This document shows positions 1 through 29,147 of a DNA stretch of 29,147 nt, one piece after another. Numbering within the stretch: position 1 is the first letter of the stretch; each line of letters starts with the position of its first letter. Source of the DNA: Verrucomicrobiota bacterium. GTDB taxonomy: Bacteria > Verrucomicrobiota > Verrucomicrobiia > Verrucomicrobiales > DEV007. Under the pieces are notes generated by a model, which saw nothing but the letters and a program-made list of their open reading frames with translations, made no database searches and had not been told where the DNA came from. The position numbers and the translations under genes were made by a program. Where the stretch lies: NCBI GenBank assembly GCA_020629815.1, contig JAHDCN010000004.1:1-29147 (forward strand), given 5' to 3'.

Positions 1-3000
1 AGCAGAGAAACTTCCAATTCCTCGAGGAACTCCACTTCCCGGACTAAGCCATCTCCGCCGCGCCATTTGCCTGAACCACCGCTGTCTTTGCGAATGGCAA
101 ACTCCCGCAGGCGAATCGGATAACGGGTTTCGAGAATTTCCGGATCGGTGATTGCGGTGTTGGTCATGTGAGTATGCAAACCGGATGCACCGTCATAACC
201 TTCACCTGCTCCGGCTCCTCCTCCGATTGTTTCGTAGTAGCCGAAGTGATCGTTGCCGAAAATGAAATTATTCATGGTTCCCTGGGAGCAGGCTTGCAGA
301 CCAAGCACTTCGATAAGTGCGTCAACAATGCGTTGACTGGTTTCCACATTCCCACCAACTACAGCCGGGCATTGATCGGTGTTTTCCGGGAAATCCGGAT
401 TGAGAAAACAACGGGGTAGATTGATATCGACCTCTGATAGAATACCTTCATTGAGCGGAAGGGAACTCTGAGTCCACAATCGCAGCACATACAAAATCGC
501 GCTGCGAACTATCGCCGGTGTGGCGTGAAGGTTACCGGGATGGGAGAGGGAGGTGCCGGTGAAATCGATCACTAATCCCTCCGCTGCTCCGGCCACCACA
601 GAAACCGAAATTCGACTACCATCATCGAGAAATTGATCAGTCGCATTGGCTGAGAATTTGGAGTTATCCAAATGCGCCCGTAGGGCTTTCGTGCTCTCGC
701 TCCGGAGCGAATTCAAGTGGTGTTTCACTTTTGCTGCACCGTTTGCTGATACCAAATTCTGGATGATATCGACACCGCGTTGATTTGACGCCAGCTGTGC
801 ATTGAGGTCTGCGATGTTGTCGGCCCGATTGCGGGTAGGGTATGGGGCCTCTGATAAAACCTCTTCCATACGCTCAATCTCAAGTTTTCCTTGCCGAACT
901 AATAGTGTTGGATGAATGACAACGCCCTCTTCTTCCAGGCTACGAGCAGCAGGGGGCATGGAACCTGGCGTAATCCCTCCGATCTCTGCGTGATGAGCCC
1001 GGTTGGCCACATAGGCGATCAATTCGTCACCGGAAAAGACCGGGGTGATTACCGTCACATCCGGAAGATGAGAGCCTCCGATCCCCGGATGATTGGTAAC
1101 AGCTGTATCGCCTGGATGTAGAGTCAGTTTTTGAACTACTTCGCGCACACACAAGCCCATAGCACCGAGGTGAACTGGGATATGCGGTGCATTGGAAATA
1201 AGTTCCCCACGGTCATTTAACAGGGCGCAGGAATAGTCTTCCCGCTCTTTGACATTGGTAGAAATCGCTGAGCGCTTCAACATAGCTCCCATCTCGGTCA
1301 CAACGTTTTCAAACCGATGCCGAAACAGCTCTCGCTCTACCTCTTTTGAAACCGAGCTGCTTGCTCGAAAAGCGTTTTCTTTCTTTGCCAGGATTGCCCC
1401 GTTTCCGGCGACAGTTGCAGTCCATCCCTTGTTCAGGAAAAATGTGCTGAACTGATCTTGAATTACAATTGGACCAGTGATCTTCTCGCCCACCTGACAT
1501 TCACTCCGATCGAGAAACGCTGACTCAACAGGGTTAGGTCGAAGAGGTAACCCTGTTAGGTCAACTGATTCAACAGGGGTGAACTTCTCAGGATTACCTG
1601 TCGAAGCAATCGCTCGTAAGCTAACCAGTTCCACTTGTCGATCGCTTTCTGGCCGATAGCCAAAGACTTTTTCATACTCGGATACGAATGCTCCCTGCAC
1701 ATCGCCGTCTTTCGGGATTGGAAGCGTGAGAGTCGAATCCTGACCATGCCAGCGCACTTCTGCCAAGGTCCTGCGAATCTCCCCATCGAAGCCGGCTGAC
1801 TTCAGTTGAGCTGCCGCATCTGCCTCAACTTCAGCGATGATCTTTGCTGGATCAAAATCAAGGATGCGCTGGACCTGTCGCTCGGCGAACCGTTCCACTG
1901 TTGCTTTATCGAGTCCAAAGGCGCTGAGCAATCCAGCTTCGGCCGGGACAATGATCTCGGTGATATTTAATCTCTCAGCAAGATCACAAGCATGTAAAGG
2001 GCCGGCACCGCCAAATGCCAGCAAGCTATAACCAGCTGGGTCAGCTCCTTCTCGAATCGAAATCGTGCGGATGGCATCTGCCATCTGCTCTACGGAAATC
2101 TCGAGCAAACCGTGAAGAAATTCCTTATCAATGTTATCCCCGGGGACTCCGGCTTGAACTTGCAGGCTCAAGGCAGCCTGATTTGCCTGTAGGATATTCT
2201 GATCGCTAATTGGAATACCGAAGTTTTCCGGATCAATTCTTCCCAGTAGAAGATTTACATCGGTAATAGTCAGCGGGCCACCATTGCCATAACAGGCAGG
2301 CCCGGGGAAGGCGCCGGCAGATTCCGGCCCTACACGTAGCCCGCCCTCACTCCAATAACATATGGATCCACCGCCTGAGGCCACTGTCTCTATCTTTAAA
2401 GCGGGAGAAAGCAGTCTGGCATCTCCTACAATCTGCTCGAACTGATAAACGAAGTCGCCATCATACCGCGCAACATCTGTCGAAGTACCTCCCATATCAA
2501 AGGTGAGGATCCTCTGTTTTCCCAATTGCTCTGCAATAGCAGCCGCTCCGGCAACGCCTCCGGCGGGACCAGACAAAAGGGAATCTTTCGGGTGGAACGA
2601 GGCGCGGTCGGCTAGCCCTCCAGCAGAAGTCATCGTCAAGAACTCTTGATCGCCCAATGATTTCCGAATCGAATCCAGAAATGATTGCATCACCGGATGC
2701 AGGCTCGCGTTAACCACAGCAGTTTCAGCACGCGGAAGGAGTTTGATCAAAGGTGCCAGCTCTGAGCTGATTGAAACGTGATCAAAACCAAGTTTGAGCA
2801 GTAGTTCCTGCAGCTGTATTTCGTGAACGGGATTCTGATAGGAGTGGAGTAGCGCGACAGCTGCATTGCGAATCCCCGAATCCAGTAATGCCTGCGCTTG
2901 TTTCCTAATACCTTCACTATCGAAGGGCTTGAGCACTGCGCCGGAAGCGTCCAAGCGCTCATCAACTTCGATAGTTGCAGAACTAAGCAAAGGTCTTTTG

Positions 3001-3527
3001 TGGTGTTGAAGAGCAAACAGATCAGGTCGCCGCTGGTCCCCAATTTCTAACAAGTCAGCAAAGCCATTTGACACAAAAAATGCGACCTTTGCGCCTTTCC
3101 GCTCGAGCAGTGCATTCGTGCCACGAGTGGTAGCCAAACGAAAGTCCAGAGAGGGGAATTCCTCATGAAGTCCGGTCCCGGTTAAAAGCCGTGCGCCAAG
3201 GATGGGAGCTTCTTCAGCAGAGGAAAGTTCTAAAACAAAGCCCTGACCTAAAGGGGCATCCAAAGTAATTTGGCTGCCTGCATGAGCTGATACTTTGCAT
3301 TGGTTTTTCCCGGAAAATGCGTAAAAACCTACAAAAAACCCATCCGGCACCTTCCAGGCATCACGGATCGAAACTTCACATTCCGTATCAGATCGCCAGC
3401 GGATCACACGCAGTTTTAGCCTCCCGGAGGACAAAACCTTAACCTGCCTCGGCGTATCTCCAACCGCTTTCCCGAAGCCCCAGCAATCAGTGAACGTTCC
3501 GCCTGTGTCTGCGCAAATGCGGGTCAT
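1..3527 (-). CDS. 5-oxoprolinase / hydantoinase A+B fusion (partial, C-terminus beyond the left edge)
   Basis: The frame stays open from an ATG at 3527 to the left edge, giving about 1175 residues of a family that usually has about 1250-1290, so only the C-terminal tip is missing. Members cleave 5-oxoproline to glutamate with ATP, or hydrolyse related hydantoins. The N-terminal half is HyuA-like: the phosphate-binding motif DTGGTFTD is at residues 7-14 and a second one, DMGGTSTDVA, near 341. The HyuB-like half begins near residue 735 (FENVVTEMG) and carries the glycine-rich GGGAGAGEGYDG near 1100 and ITDPEILETRYP after it. I prefer the ATG at 3527 over the in-frame ATG at 3557 because it puts the first motif at the usual distance from the N-terminus and has GGGA just upstream. 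Family assignment is firm. The exact substrate (5-oxoproline or hydantoin) cannot be told from sequence alone. Confidence 0.93.
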   Translation of the reverse strand, partial: MTRICADTGGTFTDCWGFGKAVGDTPRQVKVLSSGRLKLRVIRWRSDTECEVSIRDAWKVPDGFFVGFYAFSGKNQCKVSAHAGSQITLDAPLGQGFVLELSSAEEAPILGARLLTGTGLHEEFPSLDFRLATTRGTNALLERKGAKVAFFVSNGFADLLEIGDQRRPDLFALQHHKRPLLSSATIEVDERLDASGAVLKPFDSEGIRKQAQALLDSGIRNAAVALLHSYQNPVHEIQLQELLLKLGFDHVSISSELAPLIKLLPRAETAVVNASLHPVMQSFLDSIRKSLGDQEFLTMTSAGGLADRASFHPKDSLLSGPAGGVAGAAAIAEQLGKQRILTFDMGGTSTDVARYDGDFVYQFEQIVGDARLLSPALKIETVASGGGSICYWSEGGLRVGPESAGAFPGPACYGNGGPLTITDVNLLLGRIDPENFGIPISDQNILQANQAALSLQVQAGVPGDNIDKEFLHGLLEISVEQMADAIRTISIREGADPAGYSLLAFGGAGPLHACDLAERLNITEIIVPAEAGLLSAFGLDKATVERFAERQVQRILDFDPAKIIAEVEADAAAQLKSAGFDGEIRRTLAEVRWHGQDSTLTLPIPKDGDVQGAFVSEYEKVFGYRPESDRQVELVSLRAIASTGNPEKFTPVESVDLTGLPLRPNPVESAFLDRSECQVGEKITGPIVIQDQFSTFFLNKGWTATVAGNGAILAKKENAFRASSSVSKEVERELFRHRFENVVTEMGAMLKRSAISTNVKEREDYSCALLNDRGELISNAPHIPVHLGAMGLCVREVVQKLTLHPGDTAVTNHPGIGGSHLPDVTVITPVFSGDELIAYVANRAHHAEIGGITPGSMPPAARSLEEEGVVIHPTLLVRQGKLEIERMEEVLSEAPYPTRNRADNIADLNAQLASNQRGVDIIQNLVSANGAAKVKHHLNSLRSESTKALRAHLDNSKFSANATDQFLDDGSRISVSVVAGAAEGLVIDFTGTSLSHPGNLHATPAIVRSAILYVLRLWTQSSLPLNEGILSEVDINLPRCFLNPDFPENTDQCPAVVGGNVETSQRIVDALIEVLGLQACSQGTMNNFIFGNDHFGYYETIGGGAGAGEGYDGASGLHTHMTNTAITDPEILETRYPIRLREFAIRKDSGGSGKWRGGDGLVREVEFLEELEVSL

Positions 3528-3754
3528 AAATCCCGACGCAACACGGCTGATAAGCATTGGTCAAGTAGAGATCAGAGAGCAAGAATCGTGACCGTGGCTA
3601 TAAGAAGGTTATCAATGAGGTTATATCCGATTGGTCTACACAAGACAATCCGTAGAAAAAAATACAGTTTTCTGTAAAATTTCCCCTTGAAAACGACCAT
3701 AATTCCAGCAAATTCTCGCCTCGCCGTTGGCACAGTCGTCGCGGCAATAAACAT

Positions 3755-20857: not shown

Positions 20858-21391
20858 TTACTCCTCCTCGAGCAAAGCTTGCAGTTCATCCCAGTAATCT
20901 TCGCCCGCAATGTAGCCAACACAGCTTTCGGTGCCGCATCGACACGGGTGGTCTTTGTAATTTTCCAAGTCGAAGCCGTAATTAAAATACAGTTCTTCCC
21001 CTGACTTTATTTCGCGGATCGCTGCAATCCAGATACTGTGCCCATCGATATAGGCCTCACAGTTTGGCTCGCAGCTATGGTTGATCAATCGAGCGGCGTT
21101 TTCGGGAACGTCACCATCCAAATCCCAATCATCATCCAAAGTAAAAATATAAACGGCAGCTCCTCCCGTTTCCTGTGCCTTATCAAAAAGCGCCCAGCCT
21201 CGCTTGTCTGACTCCTCTTTGGTGATCTTCTCGCCAACGTATTCAATAATGTATTTCTCGTTGGGAATATCTTTGGTCGCGAAGACTCCCCTGCCGTGGA
21301 TTCCTGACTGACGTACTTCACACCAATCTGAACGGCACTCCTCATCCGGTAGCAGGGCCGATTTGCTCTTCGGTTTCTTCTTCTTTGCCAT
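20858..21391 (-). CDS. SET-domain lysine methyltransferase-like protein
   Basis: The 177-residue protein is almost only a SET domain plus post-SET tail. GIHGRGVFATKDIPNEKYII opens the domain, RLINHSCEPNCEAYIDG (N104, H105) is the S-adenosylmethionine-binding pseudoknot, and GEELYFNYG holds the catalytic tyrosine (Y138). CRCGTESCVGYI follows, whose three cysteines (150, 152, 157) with C107 could bind one zinc, as in eukaryotic histone methyltransferases. The protein starts with a Lys-rich segment. SET proteins occur in Chlamydiae and other PVC bacteria, where a few modify histone-like proteins. The target here is unknown. The ATG at 21391 follows GGGAG and overlaps the preceding stop by one base (TGATG). 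Confidence 0.93.
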   Translation of the reverse strand: MAKKKKPKSKSALLPDEECRSDWCEVRQSGIHGRGVFATKDIPNEKYIIEYVGEKITKEESDKRGWALFDKAQETGGAAVYIFTLDDDWDLDGDVPENAARLINHSCEPNCEAYIDGHSIWIAAIREIKSGEELYFNYGFDLENYKDHPCRCGTESCVGYIAGEDYWDELQALLEEE

Positions 21392-22236
21392 CACTTCTCC
21401 CACGGCACCTCTACTTCGATCCAGTTACTTTTCTCTGGCCCCCAGCCATTCGGATGATAGAGAACTCCGGCAAGGGCTTTCGGGCTTTCCGGACCAAAGT
21501 CTGTTCGCGCGAGTCCGATGTGAATCGTTCTTCCCTCGTTGGAAACGCGAAGCGTCTGAGGCTCGTCAGAATGCACCTGGTTGTCGTAGCAGAAAAAATA
21601 CAACTTTTCTGCTTCCGCTATTTCCCTATCCGCATAAAGCACGAGCTCCAGTCGATCCGGAGAAAGCCGATTGGCGCTCCAGTCCCAACTTTGAGGGCAG
21701 TCAGAAGGAAAGAGCTTCCGACTCTTATTGAAAACCTCGGCCCATTGTTTATCAACTTTCGGGGTTTCAGCTGAGACGGGAAGCGTGATAGAAAGCTCAC
21801 CAAATCCCGGATGACAGGTGCGGGCGCAAGCCATCCAGGTGGCCTTTCCCTCAATGGTTACAGTCTCGCTATTCAGGTCTTTGGGAACCTTGATTTCAGT
21901 CAGGAGGCAAACATCCTGCTCATAGCCGTAGGCAGTGAGCTTTGCCATTTTTGTTCTCTCTGGCCCTGGCCATTGAAGCGGACCGGCGGAGAAGCCCTTG
22001 GGAAGTTTCCAGGTAATCCCGGTAGGAACGCCAACTACGCCCGGCCCTTTCCAATAAGTGTGAAAGTCTTCGTCGTGACGAATAAACAGTCCAACGGTGA
22101 TTGTGCCACCGGGCTGAATTGTTTCCACCTCGGTAACCAGACGAATTTCCGGTATTCCGGGTTTTACCAATGCATCCCCTTCTCCTGAAAACACAAGAAT
22201 GGGTAGCAATATGAGTAATGCAGCAAAAAACCTCAC
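21391..22236 (-). CDS. Stand-alone DsbD N-terminal-domain-like protein (PF11412-type)
   Basis: The 281-residue exported protein resembles the periplasmic N-terminal domain of DsbD and ScsB: HDEDFHTYWKGPGVVGVPTG, ITWKLPKGFSAGPLQWPGPE, TAYGYEQDVCLLTEIKVP and WMACARTCHPG with C137 and C141 as a redox-active-looking pair. It has neither the eight membrane segments nor the thioredoxin domain of full DsbD, so the electron source is elsewhere. The most likely start is the GTG at 22236, which yields a good signal peptide (VRFFAALLILLPILVFSGEG). An ATG at 22383 would reach back into smc. It follows smc after 40 bases and couples to the SET gene. Confidence 0.8.
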   Translation of the reverse strand: MRFFAALLILLPILVFSGEGDALVKPGIPEIRLVTEVETIQPGGTITVGLFIRHDEDFHTYWKGPGVVGVPTGITWKLPKGFSAGPLQWPGPERTKMAKLTAYGYEQDVCLLTEIKVPKDLNSETVTIEGKATWMACARTCHPGFGELSITLPVSAETPKVDKQWAEVFNKSRKLFPSDCPQSWDWSANRLSPDRLELVLYADREIAEAEKLYFFCYDNQVHSDEPQTLRVSNEGRTIHIGLARTDFGPESPKALAGVLYHPNGWGPEKSNWIEVEVPWEK

Positions 22237-22276: not shown

Positions 22277-25200
22277 TTATCCTCCAATACCGGCGACTTT
22301 TGAGTCCGCAGTTTGCTCCTCGGCGTTGGAAAACTTAACGCCAACAGTCTTGGAAACACCAAACTCCTGCATGGAGACACCATACATCACGTCGGCTCGG
22401 GACATGGTCCGCTTACTGTGAGTCACGATAACGAACTGACTGTCGCCAATGAAGCGATCGAGCACTCGGATGAATCTCGTAATATTCGATTCATCAAGTG
22501 GAGCATCCAATTCATCCAGCACGCAGAATGGAGATGGCTTAACCATGTAAATCGCGAACAGCAGAGCCACCGCAGTCATCGATCTTTCACCACCTGAGAG
22601 CAAGCTGATCGACTGCAGCTTTTTGCCTGGAGGTTTAGCGATAATATCAATTCCACACTCCAGCGGATCTTCATCATCCATCAACACAAGATCAGCCTTT
22701 GCCTTGTCACCGAACAACTCTTTGAACATATCGCGGAAATTCTTCCGAATTTTCTCAAAGGTATCAGCAAACATCTTTCTGGTTTCGCGATTGATTTTCG
22801 CGATCATCCGCAACAGCTCTTCTTTGGAATTCTCCAGGTCTTCCAGCTGACGCAGATTAAATTGAAAGTGCTCCTCCAGTTCATCGAACTCAGAAATTGC
22901 ATCGAGATTGACCGGCCCCATTGAATCCAATCTGGTGCGAAGGAAAGCCACAGTCTCTACAACAAAGTCCCAATCCGGTTCAGCGGGATCGATATCGATT
23001 TCTTCGAATTCCTCCTCATTGGCTTCACTCGACTCCGCGGGAATAAAAGAAACGAGATTCTCGTCGGCGGCGTCGCTACCATTCTCAGCAGCTTCTGGAT
23101 TCTCAGCAGAGCCTTGCTCAAGTTTTTCCTCCCGCCATTCCCGCGGTTTCGGTGCCTTACTATTCTTGCGCCGGGCATTGTCCTTTTGAGTCTCGATCAC
23201 AGCCAGCAAAGTATGACTGTCCGGCTCAAACATTTCCAACTCGGTGCGATACCTCTCCCGACAGGACTTTTCCAAATTCTCGATATTGATGTCGAATTGG
23301 GCAACCTTCACTTCCTCCTTGCCCCGGCGGTCAGCAACATTCTGCACCTCTTTCCGCATCTTCGTTAGCTCGGATTCCCCTGCCTCAATCTTCTCGTTAT
23401 AGGTCGACCGCTCCGCGAGAATGGTTTCGTTCTCGGTTTGGCGTTCCGTGATCTCCACCTCCCATTGCGAAATCTTTTCCTGGAGTTCAGCCGTCTCTGC
23501 CTGGCCGCGAGCAATGCGTTGCTCGAAATCGGCAATCTCCAGCTCGCGCTTTTCAATCGTTTCCTTACTTTCCTGCAAACGCTGAACCATTGGAGCCATC
23601 TGCTCTTCAATATTGCGCTGAGTGCCCTTTTCGACAGCAAGCGAGGTCCTTGCTTCGGTAACTCGATCAGTGAGCCCTTCCTCGCTGGCACGGGCAGCAG
23701 CCAATTGCACCGAAATGCCATCCATCTGCTCATCAACCGTCTCGATCTGGCGAAGAGAAAGATCACGCTCCTGACGGTTTTTGGTGAGTTGTGCGTCGAT
23801 GCGGGTTTCCCGTTCCAGCAACTCGCTCTTTTCCCATTGCAAATTCTCGAGCTTACTATCCAACTGATTCAGGTCCCGTTCCAAAACCCCGTATTTGCCA
23901 TCGAGGGAAGATGAGGAAAGGCGTTTCTGTTGCAATCGCTCACGCGCTTCGGCAAGAATCCCTTCAAATTGGTCAACCCGGTCCATCAACTCATCGCGAC
24001 GCAGTTGACGGGAATCCACTTCACTGTGTAGCGTCGAAGCCAACTCTTCGAGTTCCTGAATCTCCGACTGCTTCTTCAGCAGCGATGAGCCTTCGCCGCT
24101 ACTTTTTCCCCCTTCGATAATGCCTTCGCGGGAAACGTACTCTCCACTTTGGGTAACAATATCAAACTCAGACGATTTCTTTCGCAAGCGCAGCGCTGTG
24201 TGCAAATCGGGAGCGATTAGAATCAACCCAAGAAGTTGGCCAATCAACGGGCGAAGTGATTCATCCTGACATTCTACATAGTCAGAAGCCCAACCAATAG
24301 CACCAAGAGGCGGGCGTCCTCTTTTATCTAATAGATCGGAATTCTGAAGCGCATCTGCAGCAATCAAAGAGGCCTTGCCCAGATTGTCCGAATTCAATGC
24401 GCTGATCACCTCTTCCGCGGTATTCAGGTCTTTTACCAACACAGCTTGGAGCCTCCGCCCAAGCGCTGCTTCGATCGCTTCCGCATTCTCCCCTTTAACC
24501 TGAATTGATTCATTCAGCGGGCCTTTAATTCCTTCCCGAAAATCGTCAGATTCCCCGAGATCCTGCAATACGGCCCGTGTTCCTTTCTCCAAACCTTCGC
24601 CACTCTCGACAAACTGCCTGAGCGTATCCAACCTGGCTCGTTTTTCTGAATGCAGTTGAAACAGAGAGCTCAGTGCTTCCTGCATCGCACTCGCTGCATT
24701 CTTTGCCTGATAGTATTTCTTTTCCGAAACTGCGAGGTTCTCTTCAAATCGGGAGATCGCATCCAGATGGGCATCAATCTTACTTTTCAGCTCCGCTGCG
24801 TCTTTGGTCCGCTCCTCCTTTTCAGCACTGATCCTGGTAATCTCTTCTTCTACCCGGGTCAGCCTCTGCTGAGAGGAAGAGAATTCCTCTTCGCTCGTTT
24901 CAATCGTTGCCTCTAAGGCCGCTGATCGGGATTTCAACTGGCTGCGCTCTTCTTCCAGCTCGCGATGCTGAGCATTGAGCGCTTCCCGGTTGTCCCGTGC
25001 TGCCTGTGTGGCCGCCTCTTCCTCCTCAACCTGACGCTGTTGTTCTTCAATGCGTTGAAGCACCTCTTGCAATTGAACGTCAGCCTGATCGATCTCTGCT
25101 TGCTGTCTGGACTCTTTCTCACGCGTTACAGTAATCTCGTCTTTGTTTTTCCGAATCAGAGTCGTTTGCTCGTGCTCACGCTCGACATTGAACTCAATCC

Positions 25201-26107
25201 TGTTCCTCGACGTGCTGATCTCGCTTTCCAGGCGGGCCAAAATTGACTGCAGCTCTGTAATGCGATTTTCAATCTCTTGGTACTCATACCTCGCCGAGGC
25301 CATTTGGGCCTGACGGTTATCGATCGAATCTTCAATATTGTCCTGCTCGAGTCGCAAACTTCGGATCGAAGTATTCAGCTCGGATTTCTCAGCTCTCAGT
25401 TCCCGCCACTGCTTGTGGCTCAGGTGCAAATCGAGAGTTTTTACATCATCGTGCAAATTTTGATAACGCTTCGCTTTTGAGGCCTGTCGGGAAAGCGATT
25501 TGATCTGTCTTTCGTTCTCCGAAACAATATCTCGGATTCGAACTAAATTCGCTTCGGTATAATCGAGCTTTCGCAAGGCCTCTTTCTTCTGTGCCTTGTA
25601 TTTGGTAATCCCGGCCGCTTCCTCAAATACCATGCGCCGATCTTCCGGCTTGGAGCTGAGCAACATATCAATCTTGCCCTGCTCCATGATGGAATAGCTG
25701 GTCCGACCGATGCCGGTATCCATTAACAAATTATGAATATCCTTTAGGCGGCATGGTTGCTTGTTCAGCAAATACTCGCCCTTACCATCGCGAAAGACAC
25801 GCCGCCCAATCGAGACTTCATCAAAATCGGTATCCAAAACGCCTTCACAGCCACCCAGTGTCAGAGTCACCTCTGCCATACCGAGTGGAGAACGCCGATC
25901 TGTCCCGTTGAAAATGACATCCGCCATTTCCCCGCCCCGCAGTGCTTTGGCTGAGGTTTCGCCCAGGACCCATCGCATGGCATCGACAATATTTGATTTG
26001 CCGCAGCCATTAGGGCCGACAATCCCTGTCACGCCCTCGTGAAAGTCCAGCAGGGTTTTGTCCGCAAAGGACTTAAAACCGTGCATCTCAAGTGATTTGA
26101 GAAACAT
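22277..26107 (-). CDS. smc: Chromosome partition protein SMC
   Basis: The 1276-residue protein has the full SMC plan: an N-terminal head with GIVGPNGCGKSN (Walker A, about residues 31-39), coiled coil to about 500, a hinge at about 505-670 (GRRLQAVLVKDLNTAEEVIS, IIEGGKSS), a return coil, and a C-terminal head with LSGGERSMTAVALLF (about 1172) and the Walker B region CVLDELDAPLDE (about 1194). With ScpA and ScpB it loads on DNA and organises and segregates chromosomes. An Asp/Glu-rich, low-complexity segment lies at about residues 980-1045, just before the C-terminal head (for example EANEEEFEEIDIDPAEPDWD). No scpA or scpB lies nearby. smc, the DsbD-like gene and the SET gene follow each other on this strand. 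Confidence 0.97.
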   Translation of the reverse strand: MFLKSLEMHGFKSFADKTLLDFHEGVTGIVGPNGCGKSNIVDAMRWVLGETSAKALRGGEMADVIFNGTDRRSPLGMAEVTLTLGGCEGVLDTDFDEVSIGRRVFRDGKGEYLLNKQPCRLKDIHNLLMDTGIGRTSYSIMEQGKIDMLLSSKPEDRRMVFEEAAGITKYKAQKKEALRKLDYTEANLVRIRDIVSENERQIKSLSRQASKAKRYQNLHDDVKTLDLHLSHKQWRELRAEKSELNTSIRSLRLEQDNIEDSIDNRQAQMASARYEYQEIENRITELQSILARLESEISTSRNRIEFNVEREHEQTTLIRKNKDEITVTREKESRQQAEIDQADVQLQEVLQRIEEQQRQVEEEEAATQAARDNREALNAQHRELEEERSQLKSRSAALEATIETSEEEFSSSQQRLTRVEEEITRISAEKEERTKDAAELKSKIDAHLDAISRFEENLAVSEKKYYQAKNAASAMQEALSSLFQLHSEKRARLDTLRQFVESGEGLEKGTRAVLQDLGESDDFREGIKGPLNESIQVKGENAEAIEAALGRRLQAVLVKDLNTAEEVISALNSDNLGKASLIAADALQNSDLLDKRGRPPLGAIGWASDYVECQDESLRPLIGQLLGLILIAPDLHTALRLRKKSSEFDIVTQSGEYVSREGIIEGGKSSGEGSSLLKKQSEIQELEELASTLHSEVDSRQLRRDELMDRVDQFEGILAEARERLQQKRLSSSSLDGKYGVLERDLNQLDSKLENLQWEKSELLERETRIDAQLTKNRQERDLSLRQIETVDEQMDGISVQLAAARASEEGLTDRVTEARTSLAVEKGTQRNIEEQMAPMVQRLQESKETIEKRELEIADFEQRIARGQAETAELQEKISQWEVEITERQTENETILAERSTYNEKIEAGESELTKMRKEVQNVADRRGKEEVKVAQFDINIENLEKSCRERYRTELEMFEPDSHTLLAVIETQKDNARRKNSKAPKPREWREEKLEQGSAENPEAAENGSDAADENLVSFIPAESSEANEEEFEEIDIDPAEPDWDFVVETVAFLRTRLDSMGPVNLDAISEFDELEEHFQFNLRQLEDLENSKEELLRMIAKINRETRKMFADTFEKIRKNFRDMFKELFGDKAKADLVLMDDEDPLECGIDIIAKPPGKKLQSISLLSGGERSMTAVALLFAIYMVKPSPFCVLDELDAPLDESNITRFIRVLDRFIGDSQFVIVTHSKRTMSRADVMYGVSMQEFGVSKTVGVKFSNAEEQTADSKVAGIGG

Positions 26108-26603: not shown

Positions 26604-27422
26604 ATGAATTTCTCAAGGCGATTCGATTTTTGGTATACCATTTTCGCAGTAACAGTGGTCTCATTGTTGGTTTCCTCGTGCCAAATGCCATCGCAGGTTA
26701 AGCCTATATCACTTACTGCGGCAGAGCCCTCCCCTCGATACCAGCTGGATATCGGTCTTGATGCTCCGACCTGGGACCAATACACCTCAGAGATTGCCTC
26801 GTTTGCTCCACCAAAGATTGACGACACATACTTTCGGATCAAGACCTCGGAAAAGGTTGTCGCTTTGACTTTTGATGATGGGCCAGTTTCTCATACGGCG
26901 ACCTTATTGGACATGCTAAAAGCACGAAAAGTGAAGGCGACCTTCTATGTTGTTGGCAACATGGTTCGTCATCGACCGCAAATGCTGCGGCGTATGATCT
27001 CGGAAGGTCATGAGATCGGTAATCACACCGTAACACACGCTATCTTGTCGAAGCATAGCCGTGATAAGGTGAAGCGGGAGTTGCAGCAGGCACACGATCA
27101 GATCGTGGCAGCAACCGGTGTTGCGCCGAAGACAATGCGCCCTCCCGGAGGTGGAATTACAAAGGAGCAAAAGAAGTGGGTCTTCGCTGAGTTTGGTTAT
27201 CCAACTATCATGTGGTCCTGTGATCCGATGGACTGGAAGAAGCCGGGAGTTTCTGTAGTGGCTCAGAGAACCATTCAGGGTGCTTCTCCGGGCGGGATTC
27301 TTCTGTTGCATGATTTGCATAAATCGACGGTAGATGCTGTGCCAACCATCCTCGACACACTCCTGGGACAAGGATACCGGTTCGTCACCGTCAGCGAGCT
27401 AATTGCAATGGATGAAAGCTAG
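26604..27422 (+). CDS. Polysaccharide deacetylase (NodB/CE4 family) lipoprotein
   Basis: The 272-residue protein has a lipoprotein signal with lipobox L-V-S-S-C (Cys26), so it is membrane-anchored in the envelope. The NodB domain carries the five CE4 motifs: ALTFDDGP (catalytic base D91 and metal ligand D92), GNHTVTH (metal ligands H141 and H145), MRPPGG, the Trp/Asp motif SCDPMDW and GGILLLHD. Such enzymes remove acetyl groups from N-acetylglucosamine in peptidoglycan or chitin-like polymers, which can protect against lysozyme. The ATG at 26604 is preferred over a TTG at 26526, because it begins the signal peptide. The tubulin gene follows in the same direction after about 200 bases. Confidence 0.92.
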   Translation: MNFSRRFDFWYTIFAVTVVSLLVSSCQMPSQVKPISLTAAEPSPRYQLDIGLDAPTWDQYTSEIASFAPPKIDDTYFRIKTSEKVVALTFDDGPVSHTATLLDMLKARKVKATFYVVGNMVRHRPQMLRRMISEGHEIGNHTVTHAILSKHSRDKVKRELQQAHDQIVAATGVAPKTMRPPGGGITKEQKKWVFAEFGYPTIMWSCDPMDWKKPGVSVVAQRTIQGASPGGILLLHDLHKSTVDAVPTILDTLLGQGYRFVTVSELIAMDES

Positions 27423-27621: not shown

Positions 27622-29147
27622 ATGAAAGTAAATAACAACATCATCATTTCCGTAGGCCAAGCAGGCGTTCAGATCGGAGATATGTTTTGGAAAACACTGT
27701 GCGGTGAGCACGGAATTAACTCAGAAGACGGAAAATGTGATGGTGATGAGCCCAAGGGAAACTGGAACGGATTCTTTTCTCAGTTAGGAGAAGGCGAGGA
27801 CAGCAGTTACGTCCCAAGAGCAATTTTTGCCGACCTGGAGCCGAGTGTGATTGATGCCGTCAAATCTGGCTCACCGGGACTTTACAATCCAGCCAACTAC
27901 ATTTCTTCGGTTGAAGGCTCTTCCAGTAACTTTGCGGTGGCAAACCAGGGCAAAGGCTCAGACCTGCTTGATGAAGTGATCGCCCGAGTCGATGCGGAAA
28001 TCGAAAAATGTGATTTGCCCGGCGGGATTATTATGATCCACTCCCTCGGTGGCGGAACCGGATCCGGTTTAGGCTGCTTGATCTTGAGTGCGATTAAGGC
28101 GCGTCACCCGGAGATTCCATTGTTGAGTGCAGCGATTATGCCGTCTGCTCAAGTGAGTTCTGTTGTTACGGAACCTTACAATGCAGTATTCGCTCTCGAG
28201 ACCTTGAAGAATTCCTGTGATGCCTGTGTGGTGTTCGACAACGAGGCTCTCTTCAAACTGACGCAGGAACAATGGCTGATCGACAATCCCACGCTGGAGG
28301 ATCTGAACCGCCTGATTTGCGAAGTGCTGTCCGAGATCACTGCGACGATGCGCTACTCCGGGTATCTCACCGTGGAGATCAGTTTGCGGGAGTTACTTAC
28401 CAACCTTGTCCCACAGCCCGACCTGCATTTCCTGATTGTTTCTACGGCTCCGCTTTATCCGCCAGACGATAGTAAGTTTGCTGAGCAGACCGTTGATGAG
28501 ATGACTCAGGCTTTGTTTTCCAAGGACTACGTGTTCGCAAAATGTGATCCTCTCGACGGGTTTTTCCTCAGTACGGCAGTGATCTATAGGGGCAAAGTCG
28601 GTGACAAGCCGAAGGCAGACGCCGCTCTGGCCAAAGTTCGGGAAACCCTGCCTTTAACCAATTGGATTCCGACCGCATTCAAGATCGGCTATGTGAACGA
28701 GCCTGGGCTGAGTCGGAACAAGTCCATGTTGATGATTGCCAACAACACCTCAGTGTCCACCGTGCTGGAGCGGATTTGTGAAAAGTTTGACCAGCTCTGG
28801 ACCAGAAAAGCTTTCGCGAACTGGTATCTCGATGCCGGCATGTCAGAGGAAGAGATCGAAAGCAGTCGTGAGTTTGCCCGTAGTCTCATTGATGCCTACA
28901 AAAGCTCAGGTGAGAGCGGCAAGAAATCAATCGAAGCGAGCTCCCGAGTAGCCCGTCCCACTCCAGCAGCGGCTCCGGTCGCGGCCGCAGCTGTTCCTGA
29001 ACCAACTCCGGAGCCTGAGCCCGAACCGGCGCCAGAACCGGAAGCTCCTGCTGTCACAGAGGAAGTTGCTGCTGCCCCTATTGAAGAGGCACCAGCGCCT
29101 GCGGCAGCAGAGCCAGAATCCGGGATTGAAACGAATCCGATCGCTCG
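27622..29147 (+). CDS. btubA: Bacterial tubulin, BtubA type (partial, continues beyond the right edge)
   Basis: A frame of 508 codons starts with MKVNNNIIISVGQAGVQIGD and is still open at the right edge. It is a true tubulin, not FtsZ. The T1 loop is GQAGVQIG (12-19), the tubulin signature GGGTGSG is at 143-149, PSAQVSSVVTEPYNAVFAL follows, the T7 region ends in RELLTNLVPQP (E257 aligns with the catalytic acid of alpha-tubulin), and NWIPTAFKIGYV and KAFANWYLDAGM come later. From memory the body matches Prosthecobacter BtubA closely, including SYVPRAI and LEPSVID. BtubA and BtubB polymerise with GTP into small microtubule-like filaments. After about residue 433 comes an Ala/Pro/Glu-rich tail (VPEPTPEPEPEPAPEPEAP) that BtubA as I recall it lacks. 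The ATG at 27622 has only a weak AAGG 16 bases upstream. Confidence 0.96.
   Translation, partial: MKVNNNIIISVGQAGVQIGDMFWKTLCGEHGINSEDGKCDGDEPKGNWNGFFSQLGEGEDSSYVPRAIFADLEPSVIDAVKSGSPGLYNPANYISSVEGSSSNFAVANQGKGSDLLDEVIARVDAEIEKCDLPGGIIMIHSLGGGTGSGLGCLILSAIKARHPEIPLLSAAIMPSAQVSSVVTEPYNAVFALETLKNSCDACVVFDNEALFKLTQEQWLIDNPTLEDLNRLICEVLSEITATMRYSGYLTVEISLRELLTNLVPQPDLHFLIVSTAPLYPPDDSKFAEQTVDEMTQALFSKDYVFAKCDPLDGFFLSTAVIYRGKVGDKPKADAALAKVRETLPLTNWIPTAFKIGYVNEPGLSRNKSMLMIANNTSVSTVLERICEKFDQLWTRKAFANWYLDAGMSEEEIESSREFARSLIDAYKSSGESGKKSIEASSRVARPTPAAAPVAAAAVPEPTPEPEPEPAPEPEAPAVTEEVAAAPIEEAPAPAAAEPESGIETNPIA

Follow-up and report, generated by a model that had tools for sequence, protein, structure and literature searches.

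Among bacteria, miniature microtubules have been described in Prosthecobacter, where the tubulins BtubA and BtubB are joined by a third protein, BklC (also named BtubC), and their cellular role has been called unclear (PMC3232192). Lateral contacts in these mini-microtubules are made only by the M-loop of BtubA, and the joint change of three M-loop residues abolished them (PMC10058229). BklC was shown to bind both the filaments and lipid (PMC5372463), and BtubC to stabilise the filament (PMC9871819, citing Deng 2017). That btub genes are old in Verrucomicrobia and have frequently been lost is one of two hypotheses put forward in PMC3232192. The Asgard tubulins AtubA and AtubB group with BtubA and BtubB, respectively, in PMC13394414, where further verrucomicrobial BtubA/B sequences were also reported; the lineage described here may be among these.

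A stretch of 29,147 nucleotides from a verrucomicrobial genome (the window) was found to end in a tubulin gene. We put at about 0.85 the probability that this gene is btubA and belongs to a btubA-btubB-bklC operon found in a family of Verrucomicrobiales other than that of Prosthecobacter, working by the mechanism proposed below. A bacterium outside Prosthecobacter's family would then carry the genes for miniature microtubules, and a diverged operon in a second family allows the conserved parts of the system to be asked about.

The frame at 27622-29145 (+) is confirmed as a btubA-type tubulin gene. Its product matched the Pfam families Tubulin (2.6e-51) and Tubulin_C (1.4e-23), showed no FtsZ_C domain at 0.001 and had no match in NCBIfam. 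Among the best 60 of 172 phmmer matches in the PDB, BtubA stood first (2bto, 1.1e-179), followed by Asgard AtubA (1.4e-102) and eukaryotic alpha-tubulin (about 1e-86); TubZ was absent from these 60. An AF2 model, built on an alignment of 19 sequences, had a mean pLDDT of 77, with residues 444-508 below 50, and its best Foldseek match was BtubA chain 2btq_A (TM 0.93 on target, 0.81 on query). The GTP-binding residues and most M-loop residues are retained. Within the M-loop the Lys and Phe are kept, an Arg is replaced by Asp and the Glu after the Phe by Ala, a combination present in 2 of 82 sequences; the Asp occupies one of the three positions whose joint change was described for Prosthecobacter. 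The first-pass annotation had named the protein a tubulin of BtubA type and quoted five motifs, all of which were found in the translation; the domains, the best PDB match and the tree placement agree with that assignment. FtsZ co-exists in the same genome (G000) as a separate gene, and PF00091 detected three genes there, btubA, btubB and ftsZ, so that the sequenced part of the genome holds no third tubulin.

Table. Positions of the features discussed. Positions refer to the window unless a locus (L) is named.
Feature	Position	Strand	Remarks
btubA, 3' end missing	27622..29145	+	ATG at 27622; 508 codons open to 29145, then 100-N gap
T1 loop GQAGVQIG, residues 12-19	27655..27678	+	V common to P0002, P0060, P0063, P0072; N in outgroups
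T4 glycine loop GGGTGSG, residues 143-149	28048..28068	+	From translation and alignment
T7/H8 region GYLTVEISLRELLTNLVPQP	28360..28419	+	Two-residue insertion relative to AtubA (alignments)
M-loop PPDDSKFAEQ	28459..28488	+	K and F kept; Arg (R284 of P. dejongeii) replaced by Asp; DSKFA in 2/82 sequences
C-terminal tail rich in Pro/Glu/Ala, residues 444-508	28951..29145	+	pLDDT below 50
NPIAR, end of tail	29134..29147	+	Last two bases, CG, start an Arg codon whatever the third base
CE4 polysaccharide deacetylase lipoprotein	26604..27422	+	Left neighbour of btubA
smc, host-genus type	22277..26107	-	Used as test of contig membership
SET-domain protein	20858..21403	-	Beside DsbD_N and smc; same trio in same-genus loci L056 and L058
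Hydantoinase A/B two-domain protein	3..3557	-	Cut at window start
Third tubulin paralogue	L103:3473-4951; L105:5535-6806	-	Proteins P0242-P0245
Pseudokinase-like gene	L016:5307-7772 (+); L103:1822-3345 (-)		Weak Pkinase match

The window stops at a scaffold gap of exactly 100 N (29148-29247 of contig C334), which cuts btubA; the btubA stop and the btubB start both fall inside it. Judging by the full sister proteins P0002 (BtubA) and P0123 (BtubB), about 300 bp rather than 100 are probably missing. To the right follow btubB, a TPR gene resembling bklC and a methyltransferase-like ORF, the last assigned by eye and without a Pfam match. Rightward extension of the contig, which had been proposed as a check, thus recovered both btubB and, as a bklC-like TPR gene, bklC. 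The host BtubB is readable from residue 71 (about 70 N-terminal residues lie in the gap) and is 89% identical to P0123. With 30-32% identity to nine other BklC proteins, which share 34-83% among themselves, the bklC-like product (257 aa, TPR families in Pfam) is a diverged copy. A BtubA-BtubB fusion, suggested by a 921-aa frame, was rejected, as this frame reads through the 100 N. Contigs searched with the window protein alone (P0001) yielded no locus, and with alignment A1 they yielded 37. The btubA-btubB-bklC order on one strand is found in 31 of these; the other six are split, cut or lack a gene on the contig. By title, 6 of the 37 are Prosthecobacter, 28 Verrucomicrobi(aceae/ales/a/ota) and one each Phragmitibacter, Brevifollis and Akkermansia, so tubulins from loci not named Prosthecobacter are common in these data. 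On the left of btubA, rho and an LptF/LptG gene lie among the neighbours beside smc and the CE4 lipoprotein, as had been listed from the sequence.

In the BtubA tree, 34 BtubA rows, the window protein among them, grouped at 100/100. A first version of 79 rows had long branches (5.78 for P0089), and P0089 and 41 other BtubA rows were dropped for a tree of 37 rows. In the latter the window protein and P0002 group at 94/85 with the type of g20, a genus of the host family f1, and belong neither to a 23-row group supported at 99/96 nor to a 5-row group supported at 100/100. In the BtubB tree a 22-row group (100/98) excludes the window copy, P0123 and P0124, which go together at 100/99, and the window pair and g20-type copies form a grade, not a clade. 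When both proteins were joined, the window pair and the g20-type copies formed one group at 87/78. Nesting with the 15 named Verrucomicrobiaceae loci gave, in the joined data, an AU p of 0.032, which speaks against it and is one of several tests, chosen after the trees were seen; for the relative branching of the window pair, g20 and f4 no alternative was rejected (AU p 0.14-0.27). The window BtubA lies outside the clade of named sequences that forms the Verrucomicrobiaceae crown. A wider tree placed the window protein in a 20-row BtubA group (100/100), which includes the third tubulins and HTH-tubulins described below, and apart from BtubB, AtubA, AtubB and eukaryotic alpha-tubulin; AtubA again grouped with BtubA, and AtubB with BtubB. 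A position inside FtsZ, named beforehand as a refuting outcome, was not found, the FtsZ rows being separated from the tubulins at 100/100 in a small tree that leaves the tubulins mostly unresolved.

The T1 loop GQAGVQIG had been regarded as a possible aid in rooting the bacterial tubulins. Its V occurs in five clusters, namely the window pair, P0063 (f1/g20, genome G168) and the close kin of the latter, P0060 and P0072. Since GQAGN is present in two AtubA, in P0246 and in P0080, V is derived and the loop loses this use; its likeness to eukaryotic alpha-tubulin is a convergence. Deep or long-branch BtubA and BtubB sequences were also noticed (P0080, P0089, P0238 and P0239), and P0080 branches below all other BtubA in both the 79-row and 37-row trees. 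The BtubB P0124, 78% identical to that of the window, is encoded on a 556-kb contig, and its partner BtubA is absent among the 120 listed.

The host genome is 69% complete and 0.99% contaminated, in 599 contigs. It belongs to family f1, and Prosthecobacter to family f4 of the same order; the named Prosthecobacter loci L017, L024 and L031 coincide, in both contig number and position, with genomes G196, G121 and G160 of f4, which agrees with the first-pass annotation that the host lineage is a different one. In f1, 3 of 74 genomes (G000, G168 and G073) match BtubB at 1e-25, and none of the 32 other genomes of the host genus carries btub; presence in only one of 33 members indicates that the operon is dispensable. 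Among 386 genomes drawn from the larger group of the order, 46 match P0002 at 1e-50, comprising G000, two of f1/g20, 42 of f4 and G349. The match of G073 is its third tubulin, its btubB being broken, and G349 was treated as contamination, both of its proteins reading by eye as eukaryotic alpha-tubulin. In a sample of the phylum btub was found in 5 of 387 genomes, all of f1 or f4, and the viral contigs searched for BtubA gave none.

In so fragmented a bin, and with no btub in the 32 related genomes, the contig might have come by mis-binning or contamination from a genome of the Prosthecobacter family, yet its flanks argue for the host. SMC matches of at least 900 residues stand at 52-67% inside the genus (one of 32 same-genus genomes has none) versus 41-46% outside it, two other f1 genera included. 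The gene right of bklC reaches 71% and 60% in two same-genus genomes, and 32-44% in other genus members with a match. Because smc on the left and this gene on the right are both of host-genus type, both halves of the scaffold point to the host and mis-binning is unlikely; the CE4 lipoprotein agrees, with a best copy at 51-65% in those same-genus genomes that match (30 of 32), and discriminates less than SMC, since it reaches 54% outside the genus. The genus FtsZ motif in the tail (see below) and the position outside the Verrucomicrobiaceae clade also speak against mis-binning, which we consider highly improbable. Recent horizontal transfer of the operon from Verrucomicrobiaceae would account for the patchy distribution in the family, and no conserved insertion site was found, the CE4 and methyltransferase genes of the relatives examined sitting in other surroundings. 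It is opposed by the place of the copy outside that clade, by a btubA core GC of 0.508 vs 0.492 for the window, and by an identity of at most 62% to BtubA proteins other than P0002 among the matches listed (up to 63% over partial copies), and it appears unlikely. An old residence in the family with repeated and ongoing loss, as against one old transfer from an unsampled lineage, is the history that we favour slightly. The grouping of the window pair with g20-type copies in the BtubA and joined trees and the broken operon of G073, with btubA gone and btubB truncated, point to it; against it stand the AU values, by which the f1 group is not significant, and the grade of f1 copies in the BtubB tree.

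The C-terminal end of BtubA carries a conserved peptide resembling SLRDLV. Of the 82 BtubA clusters in which the C-terminal anchor could be read, 77 have the pattern [LIVM][RK][DTQ][LIMF][VI] within the last 25 residues, whereas 500 shuffles gave 0.05 on average and never more than 2. There were 85 clusters in all, of which three had no anchor and were not used (two of them show the tip by eye), and P0084, P0085, P0087 and P0088 were left out of the count. All but one of 36 copies from named loci have the tip as well. It is lacking in P0001 (the window protein, cut by the gap), P0002, P0075, P0080 and P0089. P0002 ends in NPIARAIREGSSDPEEA, and the window tail in TNPIA followed by the bases CG, so that the next residue is Arg. 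NPIA was seen in 2 of 84 tails read, those of the window and P0002 (by reckoning, the 84 include two eukaryotic ones). The same four residues are found in the FtsZ linker of all 14 members of the host genus that were fetched, of 33 known and with G000 included, and in that of G073 (g20), whereas three other f1 genera, two f3 genomes and eight f4 genomes lack them there; in this set the row of G062 (f1) was unreadable and G168 had no FtsZ match. The FtsZ of G000 reads NPIAAAV, not NPIARAI, and that of most of the genus NPIARA followed by M, I, L or V. The f4 BtubA tip was sought in eight f4 FtsZ linkers and not found. A looser form of the tip pattern matched seven f1 FtsZ linkers as LSR(I/M/L)V.

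The window lineage apparently shows NPIAR(AI) in place of the SLRDLV-like tip, and, less surely, the filaments may dock to a partner common to the BtubA tail and FtsZ. In its full form, the proposal is that the BtubA terminal peptide was lost and the host-genus FtsZ-linker motif NPIARA(I/M/V) is carried instead, with microtubules and division ring competing for, or being linked by, one shared partner; this is tentative, and we hold it possible rather than probable. There is a nearly even chance that NPIA in the tail is a coincidence or a general tag, such as a degradation signal, and no docking motif shared with FtsZ. The motif is short, was found after the fact and lies in a low-complexity tail, and when the window tail was shuffled 200000 times NPIA arose 628 times. 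Chance is nevertheless less easily reconciled with the full pattern, which the P0002 tail gave 7 times when shuffled as often, with its retention in the two tails despite their divergence and its absence from the 82 other tails read, with the lack of a match in the six-frame stop-to-stop segments of the window and the fetched genus loci (89291 residues together), and with the FtsZ motif in every genus member examined. The link with FtsZ, having been noticed afterwards, is a lead and not a proof of a common partner.

Additional genes accompany some of the operons. A third tubulin, about 33% identical to BtubA and nearest to it, occurs in the operons of G168 and G073, and probably also on the contigs of P0060 and P0072. 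It has an altered T7 region and was modelled as a full tubulin (pTM 0.87; TM 0.86 to 2bto_B), and the two copies tested gave no Tubulin_C match. Three f3 genomes (G052, G049 and G043; loci L008, L009 and L010) have ORFs of 589-644 aa in which a related tubulin domain follows an HTH-type region, a fusion that is clear for L008 and L010 and weak for L009; the N-terminal part in L008 and L010, and weakly in L009, is matched by the HTH gene that stands on its own next to the third tubulin, and the Pfam HTH matches of L008 are below the curated cut-off. The glycine loop is degraded in L009 and L010, and no btubA or btubB was found in these three genomes. HTH-tubulins and third tubulins group at 98/99, on long branches. 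Of the 37 loci, 5 have too little sequence upstream of btubA to judge; in 24 of the remaining 32 a pseudokinase-like gene is found there. All five tested match Pkinase weakly, one of them above the curated cut-off, and three of the five have a membrane helix, recognised by eye only; G000 has five weak kinase-like matches, none beside btubA. Locus L105 of G073 is a decaying operon, with btubA gone, btubB truncated at its start and lacking some of the glycine loop, the kinase-like gene in pieces, and the third tubulin and bklC open.

By analogy with Prosthecobacter, BtubA and BtubB are predicted to pair into heterodimers that bind GTP and polymerise head to tail. The M-loops of BtubA would join a few protofilaments into a mini-microtubule, which the TPR protein BklC would decorate and tether to the membrane; both polymerisation and the function of BklC are carried over from the Prosthecobacter work. 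With less certainty, the acidic BtubA tail would expose a peptide at its end in the way that the FtsZ linker does; in the window lineage this peptide may be the NPIARA of the genus FtsZ linker, through which both filaments might use one partner.

What is new is that BtubA ends in a conserved peptide and that, in the window lineage, a motif of the host-genus FtsZ has apparently replaced it. If this reading of the tail is true, it offers a tangible clue to the docking site of the filament, and a bacterial microtubule would be wired to the division machinery by a borrowed short motif. The locus also bears on whether btub genes are old in Verrucomicrobia and often lost or have moved between families. 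No description of the BtubA tip, the FtsZ motif, the kinase in the operon or the third tubulin was found in the open-access papers searched, which is weak evidence of absence, as most subscription papers lie outside them.

Compared with the known systems, the locus is closest to BtubA/BtubB/BklC of Prosthecobacter (PDB 2BTO, 2BTQ and 5O09), which it resembles in gene order, domains, GTP loops, the Lys and Phe of the M-loop, and fold. It differs in family and in sequence, with about 60% identity for BtubA and about 30% for BklC, in the M-loop DSKFA, and in the acidic, P/E/A-rich tail, with NPIAR where Prosthecobacter has SLRDLVDRR; unlike in Prosthecobacter, no kinase-like gene adjoins btubA. 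Of the Asgard proteins (PDB 9HXC, 9F6T and 24RT), AtubA, which groups with BtubA as AtubB does with BtubB, lacks the two-residue T7 insertion of the window BtubA and matches it with a lower score (1e-102). The FtsZ of the same genome shares with the window tail a P/E/A-rich linker with the NPIA motif, but has an FtsZ_C domain and ends in DLDVPTFLRKKG, whereas the window BtubA has Tubulin_C, and the small tree separates the two at 100/100.
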